From an uncultured Cytophagaceae bacterium (GTDB lineage: Bacteria > Bacteroidota > Bacteroidia > Cytophagales > Spirosomataceae), in contig CAILUB010000362.1 of NCBI GenBank assembly GCA_903837305.1, positions 1 to 32,025 on the forward strand: a stretch of DNA of 32,025 nt, read 5' to 3'. The translations under genes were made by a program, and so were the position numbers. The first letter of the stretch is position 1. Each line of letters opens with the position of its first letter. This document shows, piece by piece, positions 3,352 to 22,744 of this stretch. The notes beneath the pieces were generated by a model. It had not been told where the DNA came from. It worked only from the letters and a program-made list of their open reading frames with translations, and searched no databases.

Positions 3352-6300
3352 TTAGAATGTAAGAGTCAACGTTCCACCCAATCTACGAGAGCTAGGTCCA
3401 GTTACGAAATCAAATCCAAGTCCGTTACCTACACCAGTACCCAATACGTCAGTATCGAAGTTCATGTTTGGTGGGAAGTTAAGGGCAAGGAACCATAAGT
3501 TAGTACCGCTCAAAGCAAAAGATGCTTTCTTGAATGGAGTCTTAGACATCAATTTACTAGGCAAGCTGTATGCCAAAGAAATTTCTCTCAAACGAATCGT
3601 AGATCCGTCAAATACGTTAGGCTCATCTGTAGCTCCCTGGTATCCAGAGAAGAAATAATCAGAAGCAGAAATTTGACGATCATTTTTGATGTAAATTGGC
3701 GTTCCATCTGGATTAGTACCATTTTGTCTTACACCAGGCATGATGAAAGTCATTTCACGATCAGCAACTGGATCCTTGGTTACACCACGAGCTAAAGTTG
3801 CCGTTACTGTATTAGACATTACTACACCTTTGTGACGGTATTCCATCATAGCGCTTAAGGTAAAACCTTTATAAGAGAAGCTATTGATGAATGAACCAGT
3901 CCATTCTGGGTTAGGATCACCTAATACTACAGGCTCATTAGTAGGCTTGTGTACACCAGTAGAAAGGATGATAGGCTGTCCTGTAGCAGGATCTCTATCA
4001 AAACCAATACCTTTGATGATGTTGAATGGCTGACCAGGAACAGCGAAGTTACCTAAATCGGTAAATCCAGCCACTACTACTTCAGATAATCCACCACCTA
4101 ATTCCATTACTAAAGTCTTGTAAGTAGCCCAGTTAATAGTAGAGTTCCACTCAAAACCACTTGCTGTAGATACCGGTGTTACAGTAGCTTGGAATTCAGC
4201 ACCACGAGTTCTGATACGACCAATATTGATTGCAGTACCAGTAAAACCAGTTGCAGGGTCAATTGGAGCATTCGTAATCAAATTCGTCGTGTTTTTCTCG
4301 TAAATAGAGATATCAAATTTCAACTTGTTGTTGAACATAACACCTTCCACACCGAACTCTGCCTCACCATGAAGCTCAGGCTTCAAGTTAGGGTTACCCA
4401 AGGTATTAGATACCGAGTGAGTAGCAGTCACAGATCCACCTACATCGAATGCTCTAGCAGACTGAGCTAAGACATTACGTGTACTGTATGGGCTAGGATA
4501 ACCAGCTGAGGTACCGTAACCAAATCTCAACTTAAGGTATTTCAATGTAGAAGAACTCCAATCAAATGCCGTAGTAGGGATGAAAGATAAAGATCCTCCA
4601 GGATACAATACACTTCTATTAGCTTCTTCGACTGTAGATGTCCAATCATTACGAGCAGACAAGTTCAAGAATAAGTAATCAGAATAGTCTAAAGTAATGT
4701 TAGTGTACAAACCATATCTACGCTCATCTACGCCATAGTTCATAGTTCCACCTGAATAGGCATCATTACTAGAAGAAGTAGCGAAGTTAGAGTGTCTGAA
4801 CAACCCGAAAGCCAATTGACCTTGAGAAGCCACACCAGACTGGGCATAAGTATCAAAACGAGAGTTTCCACCAAATAAAGCAGTCATGCTGAATTTATCA
4901 GAAAAGTCTTTCTTCCAATTCAAGATTAAGTCTTGGTTCCAGATCGTATTATTAATATTAATGGTTCTATAGTAACCGTTTTTAGTTGCTAGGTTAGCCG
5001 TAGCACCACCTTTATTGTATAAGATCTCTTGTAATTCAGAATACGTATCTAGACCTAAACGATAAGTCACAGAGAAGTTATTGCTGAAATCATAGTTCAA
5101 AGAAGTCGAGTTGAAGAAACGACTCACGTTAGAAGTATTCTTGTAATATTTAACCAACCAGTTAGGGTTAGTAATATCGTTTCCACCTCTAAAGTAAACA
5201 GAGCTTTTGTCTACAGGGTTCTCATACGGAAGGTTTTCTAAATCCACTGAACGTGGAGTAAACAATACGTGACCAAAAACAGAAGGAATATCAGATCCTG
5301 AACCATATGATGCGTTTGCAGGAGGAGAGATTAAATCAGTTTTAGCGAAAGTGAAAGAAGAGTTAACCGATAACTTATCAGTAATTTCAGATCTAACTCC
5401 CAATCCGAAGTTAAACTTCTTCATTTCATTTCCTGGAGTAAAGCCTTCTTCATCTGTATAACCAAAACTTGCATTATAGCTAGTCTTAGCCGAACCACCT
5501 GCTACTTGAACAGAGCTATTGGAAATTAAACCTTGTCTAAAGAAGATTTGAGAAGGATCCTTGTAAGCTTTGTATTCATACTTAATAGGAGTACCACCCA
5601 CTTTACCATCTACCCAAAATTGAGGGAATGCCTCACGAACCGCCGCTACAGAAGAAGTAGCATAAGGGTGATTGATCAACAAACCAGAATTCATGCTCGG
5701 ACCGAAGTTAGAGAAGAAGAAACCTGGAGCTTGCTGAAAACCGTTACCATATTCCATACCATAATCCGGTAAAGAAGCTGCCTTGTTAAAGAATACAGAC
5801 TGGTTGACCGTTACTTCAGCATCTTTTCTCTTAGATGCACCAGATTTAGTTGTAATCAAGATTACACCATTTCTACCTTGGTCACCATAAAGAACGGTTG
5901 CAGAAAGACCTTTCAATACAGACATAGTCTCGATGTTGTTAGGATCAATATCCAAGAAACGAGAAGAAGTAGTAGCACCACCGCCTGTAAACGAGTTCTG
6001 CGCGTTAGTAGAGGTATTAAATGGAACCCCATCCACAACGAACAACGGCTGGTTGTTACCAGTAGCTGATTTGTAACCACGGATAATCATGTTAGTACCA
6101 GATCCTGTCATACCATTGGTTGAGGTAATGTTTACCCCTGGTACCTTACCCTGCAATACGCGGGCAACGTCAGCTTCTGGACGATTCTCCAACTGTGTTT
6201 TACTTACTGAAGTTACTGCGTAACCCAGTGCTTTTTTCTCCCTTGCAATACCGATCGCCGTTACTACCACTTCGGATAGCTGCGATGCATCGACTTTAAG

Positions 6301-10061: not shown

Positions 10062-11627
10062 ATGACGTATAAAATACTTTGGGCAGACGATGAAATCGAT
10101 TTATTGAAACCCTATATTTTGTTTTTAGAGAGCAAGGGATATGAAGTTTATACGGTTAATTCAGGTGCTGATGCACTTGAATTAGTAGAGACGCAGAAGT
10201 TCGACATTTTATTCCTAGATGAAAATATGCCAGGAATGTCTGGATTAGAGGTCTTATTACAAATCAAAAAGATCCGTCCCAACCTTCCCGTTATCATGAT
10301 TACAAAATCAGAGGAGGAAGAATTAATGGAGGATGCTATCGGTTCTAAGATAGCAGATTACCTCATCAAGCCACTGAATCCCAATCAATTATTACTTTCA
10401 GTTAAGCGTATATTCGATAAGAAAAGACTGGAAGAAGGGAAAACGAATATTACGTACCAACAAGAATTTTTGGCCTTATCAATGCAATACCAGGATCATT
10501 TAAATGCCAAAGAATGGTCTGAAATCTACGAAAAACTTGTGTATTGGGAGCTCGAAATAGACACCACCGAAAATAAATCGATGGCTGAAGTTTTGAACAA
10601 TCAAAAAAATGAGGCAAATGCCCATTTTAGTAAATTCATTGAAAAAAATTACGAAGATTGGTTGCAAAAACCAGATGCAGAAACCCCCGTTTTATCACAC
10701 TTGATGCTTCGTAAACACGTATTTCCGAAAATAAACGATAAGAGTCCACTCTATTTTATTTTAATCGACAACTTACGTTTTGACCAATGGAAAACGTTGG
10801 ATAAATACATCCAAGAATACTTTCAATTAGAACAGGAAAACAAGTATTATTCCATCCTTCCCACCACAACCGCCTATGCCCGAAATGCTATTTTTGCCGG
10901 TATGATGCCGTCTGAAATTGCAAAAAATTATCCTGATAAATGGGTATATGATATAGGTGATTCGGAAGATGAAGAGGGATATAATAAACAAGAAGAATTC
11001 TACCTACAAGAACAACTAAAGCGCTTGAAAATCAACGCTAAAAGCTCCTATCACAAGATTATTCACCAATACCAAGGAAAACAGTTAGTCGACAATTTCA
11101 ATAAATTAGCCACCAATGATTTAAACGTCATCGTCTATAATTTCGTGGATATGCTATCCCACGCACGCACAGACATGGCCATGATTAAGGAATTAGCCCC
11201 AGACGAATCTGCTTATCGCAGTTTAACAGCCAGCTGGTTCCAACATTCTCCCCTATTTGATCTGTTAAAGAAGATCGCAGAGAAAAAAGGGCGTGTAATC
11301 ATTACGACGGATCACGGGATGATTCGAGTACAAAATCCAGTTAAAATCATTGGTGATCGCAATACGAATACGAATCTACGCTATAAGCAAGGGAAAAATT
11401 TAAATTGGGATGCAACCAATAAAATGATGGTTTGCAGGAAACCAGAGAACATTTTCTTACCGAAACCGAATGTCTCTACCACCTATGTTTTTGCTAAAGA
11501 AGACAATCTATTCGCTTATCCCAATAATTTCAATCAATACGTAAACCACTATAAAAATACATTCCAACATGGAGGTATTTCACTAGAAGAATGTATCATT
11601 CCAGTGGTTTACTATACAGGAAAATAA
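10062..11627 (+). CDS. porX: PorX-like response regulator with PglZ/alkaline-phosphatase-like effector domain
   Basis: N-terminal REC domain (KILWADDEIDLLKPYILFLESKGYEV...FLDENMPGMSGLEVL...MITKSEEEE...DYLIKP) joined to a PglZ domain (LPTTTAYARNAIFAGMMPSEI, TDHGMIRV, FQHGGISLEECIIPV). Confidence 0.92.
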   Translation: MTYKILWADDEIDLLKPYILFLESKGYEVYTVNSGADALELVETQKFDILFLDENMPGMSGLEVLLQIKKIRPNLPVIMITKSEEEELMEDAIGSKIADYLIKPLNPNQLLLSVKRIFDKKRLEEGKTNITYQQEFLALSMQYQDHLNAKEWSEIYEKLVYWELEIDTTENKSMAEVLNNQKNEANAHFSKFIEKNYEDWLQKPDAETPVLSHLMLRKHVFPKINDKSPLYFILIDNLRFDQWKTLDKYIQEYFQLEQENKYYSILPTTTAYARNAIFAGMMPSEIAKNYPDKWVYDIGDSEDEEGYNKQEEFYLQEQLKRLKINAKSSYHKIIHQYQGKQLVDNFNKLATNDLNVIVYNFVDMLSHARTDMAMIKELAPDESAYRSLTASWFQHSPLFDLLKKIAEKKGRVIITTDHGMIRVQNPVKIIGDRNTNTNLRYKQGKNLNWDATNKMMVCRKPENIFLPKPNVSTTYVFAKEDNLFAYPNNFNQYVNHYKNTFQHGGISLEECIIPVVYYTGK

Positions 11628-18149: not shown

Positions 18150-18884
18150 TTATTTACTCTCGCCGAATTTCAAATAGTCTGATAACAAACTTAATTTATC
18201 TGTGCCAATATAGTCTACACCGATATCCATCAAAGCCTGGTATCCTAAAAGAGTATCTGGCGTAGCCCAAAGACGGACTTTTCGTCCATTCGCGTGAACT
18301 TGATCGACGTAGTTTTTGAGTTTTTCTTTCAAAGCGGCAGGAATTGGTCCTTGGCCACCCCAAAATCCAAATTTTAACATAGATTCGCTCTCCAAAATCA
18401 CTTTTTTCGTTGGAAAACGCTCATCTGAACGACCATCAAAGGTAATCCAAGCAGGAGATTCAATGTATTGTGAAGGCTTAGGACGATTTCCTGAAATCAC
18501 AATTCGGAATCCCTTTTTCAGTAAGATTTCGGCATGGGGCCTCAATGCAGCAATAATCAGCGGCAAAGTGGAGTCTGATGAGGTCTTAGAATCAATCAAT
18601 AATTGGTGAAAATTACCCTCTTTATTTGCTTTCAGAACTCGAATAATGGGATCTATGTACAAATCTTTCAAGTTGCGATTCAGGCGTAACTGGGAACGCT
18701 CATGTCCCACCAATAATTCACCATTTACTGCATATACATCCGCTTCAATAGAGCCAAAACCTAGCTGAAACGCATCAAAAAATGGTCGAGCGTGTTCGTA
18801 ATCATTGTGTGCGTGCGCCTTTAAAAGCGGGTTTTGGGCCTGAGCGGTAAATGTCAACAAACAAAGAAGAACGATATTTTTCAT
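18150..18884 (-). CDS. GDPD/PI-PLC-like phosphodiesterase family protein
   Basis: Signal peptide, AHAHNDYEHARPFFDAFQLGFGSIEADVYAVNGELLVGHE, TPDTLLGYQALMDIGVDYIGTD. Confidence 0.82.
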   Translation of the reverse strand: MKNIVLLCLLTFTAQAQNPLLKAHAHNDYEHARPFFDAFQLGFGSIEADVYAVNGELLVGHERSQLRLNRNLKDLYIDPIIRVLKANKEGNFHQLLIDSKTSSDSTLPLIIAALRPHAEILLKKGFRIVISGNRPKPSQYIESPAWITFDGRSDERFPTKKVILESESMLKFGFWGGQGPIPAALKEKLKNYVDQVHANGRKVRLWATPDTLLGYQALMDIGVDYIGTDKLSLLSDYLKFGESK

Positions 18885-21800
18885 TAGCCTTTCACATAAT
18901 CCCCAGACGCAATGCGCGTTTTCGGGTCGATTTTTTTATTATATAAATACGCATAAGTTTCAATTTCTTTGCCTTTTAAGCTCACTTTTACCTGCTCACG
19001 CACAAAAATACTTTCTGCTGGTTTTTCGGTATTGTATTCCTCGTATTCATCTAACACGTTCAATAATTTGATCGTATTGGACAATAAATACAATTCACCT
19101 ACAACTTGGTCTTTTGCATCTGATGAAGGAATGATACCTGGATAATCGGCCACTTGGTACATTTGACCTTGGTATGTTGCCATGCCGATATAGTCCGAAT
19201 TACGTGCGATTAAGCGATGTAAGTCGTTTCCACAGTCACGACGCAAGGTTCCATACACAAATAAATATTCTTCCACGTTTGGTTCTGGGAGTTTTGCCTC
19301 TTCCAAGGTCAATACTAAGTCTTCTTGCTCTACCACCGTTCCTTCTGTAAGTACTACGTTACCGATGATTCCCTCGAATGGAGCTGAAACGATCGATTCC
19401 ATCTTCATCGCTTCGATCACGTAAAGTGGCGCGTTTAATTTCACTTCATCGCCTGGTTTTACCAAGATACGGGATAAGCGACCTTGCAATGGAGCGCCGA
19501 TATCGCCTTTTACTTTTGCCTTCGCGTGTTGAGCGCGTTCGACTTTGACGTTTTTGTCCAAAATCTTAATGCGGCGAGCTTGGCCATTCAACTCAAAAGT
19601 CACGTTACGCAGACCTGACTCATCTGGCTCAGACATGTACAAGAACTTCACGATGATCGTTTTACCTGGCTCAATCGTAATCATAATCTCCTCATCCTGC
19701 TTTAAGCCATAGAAGAAGGCTGGCGTAGGAAGTGCCGATAATTCACCGAATGAAGCCGAATTCTTGTAATAGTCTTCGTAGACTTTCGGGTACATTTTGT
19801 ACGATAAGTAATCAAAGAATCCGTCTTCAGCCTCAGGGAATTTCTTTTTAAATGACTTGAAGTCAGCATCGAAGTCGATGGGTGCTAAATGATCGTTTGG
19901 ACGACCTTCGATCGCGTGTTCACCTTTCAAGATGATCTCCTGTAATTGTTTTGGGAAACCTTGGTAAGGTTGACCTAGGCCGCCCTTGAAGAAGTCTTTT
20001 ACGGATTCAGGGAAGGATAAGGTGGCGCCTTTGGCATACACATCCTCCGCCGTTAACGAATTCGCTGTCATAAAAATCGCCATATCCCCTACCACTTTCG
20101 ACGATGGAGTTACTTTAACGATATCTCCAAAAAGCGTATTTGCCTCCGTATAATTACGCTTCAACTGTTCAAACTTATCGCCTACGCCCAACGCAATCGC
20201 TTGGCCACGTAAGTTGGTATATTGTCCACCCGGAATCTCATTATTGTACACCTCAGCGGTTCCCGCCTTCAGTTCCGATTCGAACGGCGTATACATCGTA
20301 CGAACCGCCTCCCAATAATTCGAATATTCGTTTAGTAAGTCTAAATTCAAATCTGATGCTTTCGGATGACCCTGCATCATCGCCACTAGCGAGTTCAAGT
20401 TAGGCTGAGAAGTCAATCCTGACATCGCTCCTAACGCTCCATCTACAATATCTACACCGGCTTCAATGGCCTTTAAATACGTCGCTGATTGAACTGAGGC
20501 TGTATCGTGGGTATGTAAATGAACCGGTAAATCAACCGCTTTCTTTAATTCGGTCACTAATTTCTCCGCTTGGAAAGGACGTAAAAGACCGGCCATATCT
20601 TTTATACACAACATATGAGCACCGGAGTCTTCCAACTGACGCGCCATATCCACGTAATATTGCAGATTGTATTTTTCGTTTGTAAAGACGTCGCCTGTGT
20701 AGCAAATGGCAGCTTCTGCAATGCCCGGCGTGCGTTCGCGAACGGCTTTGATCGAGACTTTCATCGCGTCAATCCAGTTCAAGGAATCGAAAATACGGAA
20801 GACATCGACTCCGGCTTCGGAGGATTTCTCCACGAATTTTTCAATCAAATTATCTGGGTATGCTGAATATCCCACGGCGTTTGAGCCACGGAAAAGCATT
20901 TGCAAGAGCATATTCGGCATGGCTTCGCGGAACTCTTGCAGACGTTTCCAAGGAGATTCTTGCAAGAAACGCATCGCCACGTCGAAGGTCGCGCCACCCC
21001 AAACCTCCATCGAGAACAATTGAGGGAAGGATTTCGCAAATCCGTCAGCCACGGCTAACATATCTTGGGTACGAACACGGGTCGCTAAGAGCGATTGGTG
21101 TCCATCTCGGAATGTCGTGTCGGTGAAATAGATTTGCTTCGCATCACGAATGTGCTTCGCAAATTTCTCAGGACCCATTTCCGTTAATAATTGTTTGTTT
21201 CCTTTCGGGTATTCCGCCATCGGATCCACATACGGGATGATTGGGGTGCGGAAAGGAGCCGTTGGCTTCACTTTCACATCCGGATTTCCGTTGACGATAA
21301 CTTCTCCCAGGTAGCGTATCGCCTTCGTAGAGCGGTCGCGAGTGGGTTTGAAGTTGAATAATTCCGGGTGGTTCGCAATGAATGGCACCGTGCAATGGCC
21401 TTCTTGGAAGACGGGGTGTGTGATCACGTTGCGTAGGAACGGGATGTTGGTTTTCACGCCGCGGATTCGGAATTCGGTTAGTGCGCGGTTTAAGCGCTCG
21501 GACGCACCGCGAAGCGTGCGGCCTTTGGCCGACACTTTTACTAACATCGAATCGAAATACGGGGAAATTTTTACCCCAGGATACGAAGACCCTTCGTCCA
21601 AACGAATACCGAAACCGGCTGCATTACGGTAAGCGATAATCGTTCCAAAATCCGGTTTAAATCCATTCGCTGGATCCTCCGTCGTGATACGACATTGGAT
21701 TGCAAAGCCCTTTAACGGGATGTCCGCTTGGTTTTGGATGAAAATACCTGGGTCGGATAACTTATAGTTTTGGGCGATTAGGATCTGCGTCCGGACGATA

Positions 21801-22744
21801 TCGATGCCCGTCACCTCTTCCGTAATCGTATGTTCTACTTGAATGCGGGGATTTACCTCGATGAAGTAGATATTTTCGTCTTTATCGACTAAAAACTCTA
21901 CCGTTCCTGCGTTATAATAATTGACCGCTTTACCGATGGAAAGCGCGTAAGCGTATAATTTCTGTTTTGTTTCTTCTTTTAGACCAAAAGAGGGGGCAAT
22001 TTCGACCACTTTTTGGAAACGTCTTTGTACCGAACAATCGCGCTCGTACAAATGCACCAAATTTCCGTGCTGATCCCCTAATAATTGTACCTCGATGTGC
22101 TTCGGGTCATCGATAAATTTCTCGATGAACAAGGTGTCATCTCCAAAAGCATTTTTCGCCTCATTCTTCGCCTCTTGATACGCCTTTTCTAATTCTTCTT
22201 CCGTTCTTACTACACGCATTCCACGTCCACCTCCACCGGCAGCCGCTTTCACCATGACGGGAAATTTAATACGTTTAGCTTCGGATAGGGCCAAAGAATA
22301 ATCAGCCAAATCCCCTTTCGAATCCTCAATCATAGGCACATTGGCCTTCAAGGCTGCCACTTTCGCTGCTACTTTATCTCCTAATGCATTCATCGCCTCT
22401 GGAGATGGACCCACAAAAACGATTCCCTCTTCTCTACAGCGGGTTGCCAACACCACGTTCTCCGATAAGAAACCATAACCCGGGTGAATAGCGTCAATTT
22501 TCTTCGATTTACACAAAGAAATCAAGCCCTCAATGTCCAAGTAAGGCTTTAAAGGTTCATCATCTTTTCCGATTTGGTATGCTTCATCCGCTTTATAGCG
22601 GTGCAAGGAATAGCGATCCTCGAAGGTATACACAGCGACTGTCCGAATACCTAATTCGGAAGCAGCACGCATAATTCGGATAGCGATTTCACCGCGGTTA
22701 GCGATTAATAGGCTAGAGATTTTCTTAACGTATGATTTTGGCAT
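18884..22744 (-). CDS. pyc: Pyruvate carboxylase with C-terminal gamma-glutamylcyclotransferase-like domain
   Basis: Biotin carboxylase (LLIANRGEIAIRIMRAA, GGGGRGMRVV), carboxyltransferase (TTFRDGHQSLLATRVRTQD), BCCP (EAMKMES), then YLFVYGTLRRD...LDEYEEY. The track start is 22771; the ATG at 22744 is preferred (MPKSYVKKISSLLIANRGE). Confidence 0.96.
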   Translation of the reverse strand: MPKSYVKKISSLLIANRGEIAIRIMRAASELGIRTVAVYTFEDRYSLHRYKADEAYQIGKDDEPLKPYLDIEGLISLCKSKKIDAIHPGYGFLSENVVLATRCREEGIVFVGPSPEAMNALGDKVAAKVAALKANVPMIEDSKGDLADYSLALSEAKRIKFPVMVKAAAGGGGRGMRVVRTEEELEKAYQEAKNEAKNAFGDDTLFIEKFIDDPKHIEVQLLGDQHGNLVHLYERDCSVQRRFQKVVEIAPSFGLKEETKQKLYAYALSIGKAVNYYNAGTVEFLVDKDENIYFIEVNPRIQVEHTITEEVTGIDIVRTQILIAQNYKLSDPGIFIQNQADIPLKGFAIQCRITTEDPANGFKPDFGTIIAYRNAAGFGIRLDEGSSYPGVKISPYFDSMLVKVSAKGRTLRGASERLNRALTEFRIRGVKTNIPFLRNVITHPVFQEGHCTVPFIANHPELFNFKPTRDRSTKAIRYLGEVIVNGNPDVKVKPTAPFRTPIIPYVDPMAEYPKGNKQLLTEMGPEKFAKHIRDAKQIYFTDTTFRDGHQSLLATRVRTQDMLAVADGFAKSFPQLFSMEVWGGATFDVAMRFLQESPWKRLQEFREAMPNMLLQMLFRGSNAVGYSAYPDNLIEKFVEKSSEAGVDVFRIFDSLNWIDAMKVSIKAVRERTPGIAEAAICYTGDVFTNEKYNLQYYVDMARQLEDSGAHMLCIKDMAGLLRPFQAEKLVTELKKAVDLPVHLHTHDTASVQSATYLKAIEAGVDIVDGALGAMSGLTSQPNLNSLVAMMQGHPKASDLNLDLLNEYSNYWEAVRTMYTPFESELKAGTAEVYNNEIPGGQYTNLRGQAIALGVGDKFEQLKRNYTEANTLFGDIVKVTPSSKVVGDMAIFMTANSLTAEDVYAKGATLSFPESVKDFFKGGLGQPYQGFPKQLQEIILKGEHAIEGRPNDHLAPIDFDADFKSFKKKFPEAEDGFFDYLSYKMYPKVYEDYYKNSASFGELSALPTPAFFYGLKQDEEIMITIEPGKTIIVKFLYMSEPDESGLRNVTFELNGQARRIKILDKNVKVERAQHAKAKVKGDIGAPLQGRLSRILVKPGDEVKLNAPLYVIEAMKMESIVSAPFEGIIGNVVLTEGTVVEQEDLVLTLEEAKLPEPNVEEYLFVYGTLRRDCGNDLHRLIARNSDYIGMATYQGQMYQVADYPGIIPSSDAKDQVVGELYLLSNTIKLLNVLDEYEEYNTEKPAESIFVREQVKVSLKGKEIETYAYLYNKKIDPKTRIASGDYVKG
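18887..19276 (-). other. Gamma-glutamylcyclotransferase/AIG2-like domain fused to pyruvate carboxylase (approx. residues 1166-1295 counted from the track start)
   Basis: VEEYLFVYGTLRRDCGNDLHRLIARNSDYIGMATYQGQMYQVADYPGIIPSSDAKDQVVGELYLL...LNVLDEYEEYN...FVREQVKV...YAYLYNKK: YGTL substrate-loop motif and acidic LDEYE motif. Confidence 0.88.

Follow-up and report, generated by a model that had tools for sequence, protein, structure and literature searches.

Pyruvate carboxylase (PC) is among the best-studied multidomain enzymes. It is a tetramer whose biotin-carrier domain (BCCP) swings between the biotin carboxylase (BC) and carboxyltransferase (CT) sites, and in the lipoyl fold of this domain the C-terminus lies at the end opposite to the biotin hairpin. 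Known single-chain enzymes of the Staphylococcus aureus type (3bg5; NF009554/TIGR01235) have the domain order BC-CT-PT-BCCP and usually end at or just after BCCP. The two-subunit PC (5ks8; PMC5059739) departs from this standard chain by splitting it, whereas the protein described here has all of these domains in the same order and departs from the standard by the addition of an unrelated enzyme, a GGACT-family domain. In human gamma-glutamylamine cyclotransferase (GGACT/A2LD1; 3jub/3juc/3jud) and its mouse counterpart (1vkb), the residues reported for the active site are Tyr7, Gly8, Thr9, Leu10, Ile50, Glu82, Tyr88, Tyr115, and Tyr143 (PMC2954230), with Glu82 as the acid/base (PMC7022552). Bacterial relatives, including YkqA (2qik), YtfP (1xhs), and homologs in Bacteroidota, are free-standing proteins, in contrast to the domain reported here.

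The DNA analyzed (hereafter the window) comprises 32,025 nucleotides of a contig from an uncultured Cytophagaceae bacterium. A single open frame on its minus strand (18884–22744; ATG at 22744, TAA at 18886–18884) encodes a protein of 1286 amino acids with a predicted mass of ~144 kDa when unbiotinylated. From the DNA letters it had been proposed that a PC is joined here, in one frame without a stop codon, to a GGACT/AIG2-like domain, and this was confirmed by the uninterrupted frame together with matches to the NCBIfam PC equivalog NF009554 (residues 7–1148, 1685 bits vs. a cut-off of 965) and to PF06094. Pfam analysis placed Biotin_carb_N, CPSase_L_D2, Biotin_carb_C, HMGL-like, PYC_OADA, Biotin_lipoyl, and GGACT (PF06094) on the same chain.

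All parts of the gene lie on the minus strand. The biotin carboxylase domain (residues 9–457, window 21374–22720; PF00289, PF02786, and PF02785) is followed by the CT domain (approximately residues 536–831, 20252–21139; NF006761 from residue 536, HMGL-like, and alignment to 3bg5), the PYC_OADA conserved carboxylase region (residues 832–1033, 19646–20251; PF02436), and the BCCP domain (residues 1082–1147, 19304–19501; PF00364 and Foldseek matches to PC BCCP structures). The CT motifs TDTTFRDGHQS, CIKDMAG, and HLHTHDT are all present and align with those of S. aureus PC. The original prediction had correctly located the codon of the biotinyl lysine at 19403–19405; this residue, K1114 within EAMKMES, is 172 residues from the C-terminus. 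Among solved structures, bacterial PCs come closest, and their chains stop at the point at which the GGACT domain starts (S. aureus 3bg5, query residues 6–1150). Unlike these, the fused protein continues for 138 residues beyond the end of the PC model at 1148, 126 of which form a second enzyme domain. Judged by its curated equivalog score, Pfam domains, and biotin and CT motifs, the protein is assigned to the single-chain PC family, and its C-terminal extension is a variation on the PC chain rather than a reason for exclusion from that family.

The linker between the two parts, LEEAKLPEPNVEEY (residues 1147–1160, 19265–19306), has 14 residues and an LPEP motif in each of 45 distinct fused tails. 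It leads into the GGACT/AIG2-like domain (residues 1161–1286, 18887–19264), within which PF06094 matches residues 1161–1284 (E 4.3e-21, 76–82 bits vs. a gathering cut-off of 22.8) and is covered from model position 1 to 119 of 120, that is, as a whole domain. An AF2 model of the isolated domain had a pLDDT of 93.6 and a pTM of 0.87. The best Foldseek matches of this model were YkqA, PH0828, Arabidopsis AIG2-like proteins, and mouse/human GGACT, with a probability of 1.00 to 2qik, 1v30, 1vkb, and 3jud. The assignment of the domain is thus backed by HMM, by profile comparison against the PDB, and by fold, and the concern that it might have no HMM match is removed.

The genome to which the window belongs is assembled in fragments and ~83% complete, and a missed stop codon or a frameshift could have produced such a frame. 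However, the identical frame is present in named isolates (Aquirufa antheringensis, A. ecclesiirivi, A. aurantiipilula, A. rosea, Sandaracinomonas limnophila, Arcicella rosea, and Flectobacillus sp.) as well as in many metagenome-assembled genomes (MAGs) and the one-contig genome G128, which leaves an assembly or annotation artefact with a vanishingly small probability. Among GTDB relatives with the fusion, the chain, counted from the first residue of the biotin motif, runs for 175–183 residues (one contig ends early) and carries the same linker and domain throughout, whereas in the unfused set it stops 38–43 residues from the start of EAMKM. The fusion was found in no fewer than 45 different protein tails of independent assemblies, isolates included, and is thus neither chance nor artefact. 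The original prediction had named separate genes in close relatives as a sign of assembly error, and the agreement of independent isolate genomes led us to reject such an error.

Some records deserve comment with respect to their names. NZ_JAAALB010000001.1, which bears the label Cellulophaga sp. BC115SP (Flavobacteriaceae), clusters closely with Flectobacillus in both of the trees described below and appears to be misnamed. Likewise, an Aquirufa-type fused PC is carried by several MAGs under the name Spirosoma fluviale. In addition, two small ORFs (~150 and 43 amino acids), resembling a toxin–antitoxin-type pair, lie downstream of the fused gene in an Arcicella-like genome (locus L117 of G052, 4548–5385). 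After them, the final 237 bp of the PC–GGACT gene occur once more (224/237 identical; an 85-amino-acid remnant ORF), a pattern suggestive of a small insertion by which the 3′ end of the host gene was regenerated.

To investigate the distribution of the fusion, the positions of PF06094 and of PF02436 were determined independently of each other in 151 genomes of the family. The fusion was detected in all 35 sampled genomes, representing eight genera, of a clade of freshwater Bacteroidota comprising Flectobacillus, Arcicella, Pseudarcicella, Sandaracinomonas, and Aquirufa. Each has one PC and one GGACT, both in the same ORF (~1280–1341 codons; one cut by a contig end), and this family-HMM survey detected neither a second PC nor a free-standing GGACT copy in any of the 35. 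The fusion is retained without any observed loss in the eight genera. In other PC-bearing genera of the family, GGACT is a free protein, mostly of 130–190 amino acids, encoded elsewhere in the genome. Where both unfused genes could be checked on one contig (G020, G021, G034, and G045) they are 1.6–3.5 Mb apart, and no GGACT ORF was found within ~8 kb on each side of unfused PC genes where contigs allow. Sixty-one of the 151 genomes have no PC match, and GGACT is retained in almost every one of them. The survey slightly undercounts GGACT: at least two genomes that it missed (G047 and G049) were later found to have a copy by the domain profile (E 1.7e-24 and 2.2e-33). Plasmid records contain only standalone-looking relatives (~31% identity). 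In a search with a junction-spanning profile, full-length fusion matches were confined to this clade among the 342 order-level and 396 phylum-level genomes sampled.

The gene next to the fusion (18150–18884, minus strand) overlaps it by 1 nt. This overlap (TAATG), reported in the original prediction, is real. The accompanying description of the neighbor as GDPD-like is reflected in a weak match, although this is sub-threshold only (GDPD_2, E 0.005, 17.8 bits vs. 27), and no Pfam or NCBIfam family was matched above cut-off. Coupled translation of the two genes is consistent with the overlap; it would be a local matter, since homologs of the neighbor adjoin the fusion only in Aquirufa and Sandaracinomonas, whereas the fusion itself occurs in all other genera of the clade. 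The neighbor therefore lies outside the conserved unit, and translational coupling was rejected as a general feature of the fusion. Elsewhere in the window (10062–11627, plus strand) is a gene for a protein with a response-regulator receiver and a PglZ domain, the architecture of PorX, a regulator of type IX secretion.

In a tree built from the PC part without the GGACT domain, a single branch (support 100) separates the fused sequences from all unfused ones, with Siphonobacter-type PCs as the nearest unfused sequences (support 94). In the tree of the GGACT part, the fused domains likewise form one clade (100/97), and deeper forks are weakly resolved. As each tree gives one fused clade, the fusion has a single origin. 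The simplest account of these trees is one event followed by vertical inheritance, with the free copy gone. The event would have taken place in the ancestor of the Flectobacillus/Arcicella/Pseudarcicella/Sandaracinomonas/Aquirufa clade, and most simply the GGACT gene of the genome would have been transferred from a distant locus and appended to PC at its 3′ end, replacing the free-standing copy. An origin from an operon, in which neighboring genes merged by loss of a stop codon, is unsupported, given the flanks without GGACT and the distances of megabases between the unfused genes. With regard to the source of the domain, a horizontal origin was considered, for which the GGACT tree offers too little resolution outside the fused clade. 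Standalone GGACTs of the sister lineages in the PC tree (G033, and G020 of a Siphonobacter-like genus) scored best against the fused-domain profile in one comparison, which favors a vertical origin, although standalone GGACTs of other lineages scored similarly to these copies in a broader order-level search.

A single event of this kind may have been a chance in-frame fusion after which both halves went on working as before, the join itself being unselected. Such a neutral join is possible, if somewhat unlikely. It agrees with there having been one event only, with the lack of a second fusion in the order and phylum samples, and with the unlinked genes of relatives. On the other hand, the fusion has been kept in every genome of the clade with an exact linker length and an invariant LPEP, and neutrality would then require that splitting the gene is simply hard.

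None of the 45 distinct fused tails has a methionine between the biotin motif and YGTL; a separate ATG start for the GGACT domain is therefore excluded, and its independent internal translation would require a GTG or TTG start. Pairwise dN/dS was determined for 72 non-independent pairs with whole-gene dS of 0.15–1, and the medians were 0.067 for the GGACT domain, 0.033 for the linker, and 0.015–0.026 for the PC parts. The GGACT domain is thus under purifying selection and has no sign of decay. Its amino acid sequence changes at several times the rate of the PC part. At a PC identity of 88–91%, the median domain identity was 73% for fused versus 49% for standalone copies (non-independent pairs, the standalone side being ten genomes of one other genus).

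Residues of the active site were counted in 53 fused and 50 standalone sequences, with positions mapped by profile alignment. Equivalents of Y7, G8, T9, L10, E82, and Y115 (human numbering) and a conserved Arg after E82 are present in all 53 fused copies. The catalytic Glu, E1235 in our protein (codon 19040–19042; aligned with Glu82 of human/mouse GGACT; PMC7022552, PMC2954230), is also invariant in the standalone set (50/50). In contrast, the position of Tyr88 (F1247, codon 19004–19006; PMC2954230) is Phe in 53/53 fused copies versus Tyr in 45 and Phe in 5 of the 50 standalone sequences, and the standalone copies of the sister lineages keep Tyr. Two further substitutions are fixed in the fused set: an E directly after E82 (53/53 vs. 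5/50 standalone) and the His of GNxLH (53/53 vs. 9/50). Compared with the human and mouse enzymes, the fused domain shares the fold (TM 0.67), YGTL, and the equivalents of Glu82, Arg90, and Tyr115 (PMC2954230). It differs in being joined to PC, in having Phe for Tyr88, and in being <20% identical; the region around Ile50 of the animal enzyme is shorter, without the loop in which that residue sits. Standalone bacterial proteins are closest to it in both sequence and fold. The replacement of Tyr88 by Phe may lower or change the activity.

It is very unlikely that the domain is only a non-catalytic appendage, a GGCT fold serving stability, oligomerization, or protein contacts. The Phe at position 88 in all fused copies would fit such a role, as would the Foldseek match to PDB 9i09, where the GGCT fold occurs in a non-enzymatic-looking setting, as part of the Paulinella chromatophore transit peptide. 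Yet the equivalents of the Glu, YGTL, Arg, and Tyr115, needless for a purely structural role, are present without exception in the 53 copies, and the fused genomes have no other GGACT copy. E. coli YtfP (1xhs) appears to have no residue equivalent to Glu82 in the profile alignment; membership in the GGCT-fold family is thus no guarantee of a cyclotransferase reaction, and the cyclotransferase annotation of YtfP-type proteins deserves caution. YtfP without this Glu, together with the clade-wide Phe and the faster evolution of the domain, counts against a working enzyme.

On balance, the protein is probably a bifunctional enzyme that combines a normal PC with a working GGACT-family domain, an explanation that overlaps with both the neutral join discussed above and the coupling considered below. 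A GGACT-family enzyme would be attached by the fixed 14-residue linker to the C-terminus of the biotin-carrier domain, such that each mobile BCCP arm of the PC tetramer carries a single GGACT domain at the pole opposite to biotin. Since the C-terminus of BCCP is opposite to the biotin hairpin, a domain tethered there need not block the BC or the CT site. We infer that the domain is catalytically active and most likely kept the ancestral reaction, in which the alpha-amino group of a gamma-glutamyl compound attacks its own gamma-carbonyl. E1235 would act as the acid/base, and the products would be 5-oxoproline and an amine or amino acid. The output of GGACT would then be tied to the abundance of PC, and the fused domain would be the only cyclotransferase of the GGACT family in the clade.

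Gene content bears on the possible substrates. Of 13 fused genomes, 12 were found to encode GGT-family proteins, which makes it probable that these cells carry out gamma-glutamyl chemistry. PxpA, a 5-oxoprolinase subunit, was detected in only 3 of the 13, which argues against obligatory recycling of 5-oxoproline by this route. The glutathione-synthesis family GCS2 was detected in 4 (and in none of the 4 Aquirufa genomes tested); its absence from the other nine argues against glutathione as a general substrate. Partner genes for glutathione or 5-oxoproline recycling do not form a consistent pathway, and the suggestion made with the original prediction, that the fusion links anaplerosis to 5-oxoproline/gamma-glutamyl metabolism, finds no consistent support in this pattern.

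A more elaborate proposal, which we regard as clearly unlikely, is that the two parts form a regulated unit: the GGACT domain would sense or process a gamma-glutamyl metabolite and alter BCCP movement or PC activity, and the supply of anaplerotic oxaloacetate would thereby be coupled to glutamate/gamma-glutamyl status. Such coupling would be in keeping with the fixed length of the linker and its invariant LPEP, the stronger conservation of fused than of standalone domains at equal PC divergence, the clade-wide substitutions near the catalytic Glu and at position 88, and the lack of loss in eight genera. However, a single origin makes the clade-wide residues partly a matter of inheritance, and an AF2 model of the two domains gave no confident relative orientation (pTM 0.54). 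Moreover, most unfused relatives keep GGACT even where PC is missing, which indicates no general functional dependence, and most of the fused genomes tested lack PxpA and the glutathione-synthesis family.

PC and GGACT are both known families, and it is their combination that appears to be new. The expectation that this architecture had not been described held for the open-access papers searched, in which we found no description of a PC–GGACT fusion and nothing characterizing one, common as it is within one clade. The BCCP arm of PC has to move back and forth between two active sites, and a natural enzyme in which, throughout a clade, this arm bears a 14-kDa second enzyme offers a ready test of the load that the swinging domain can tolerate. 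The fusion also provides a pointer to the role of the largely uncharacterized bacterial GGACT/YtfP-type proteins, and, with no free GGACT copy found in the clade, the function of the fused domain is open to probing by edits confined to a single domain of a single gene. If the join is functional, it would represent a new way of tying anaplerosis to glutamate/gamma-glutamyl status via the BCCP arm.
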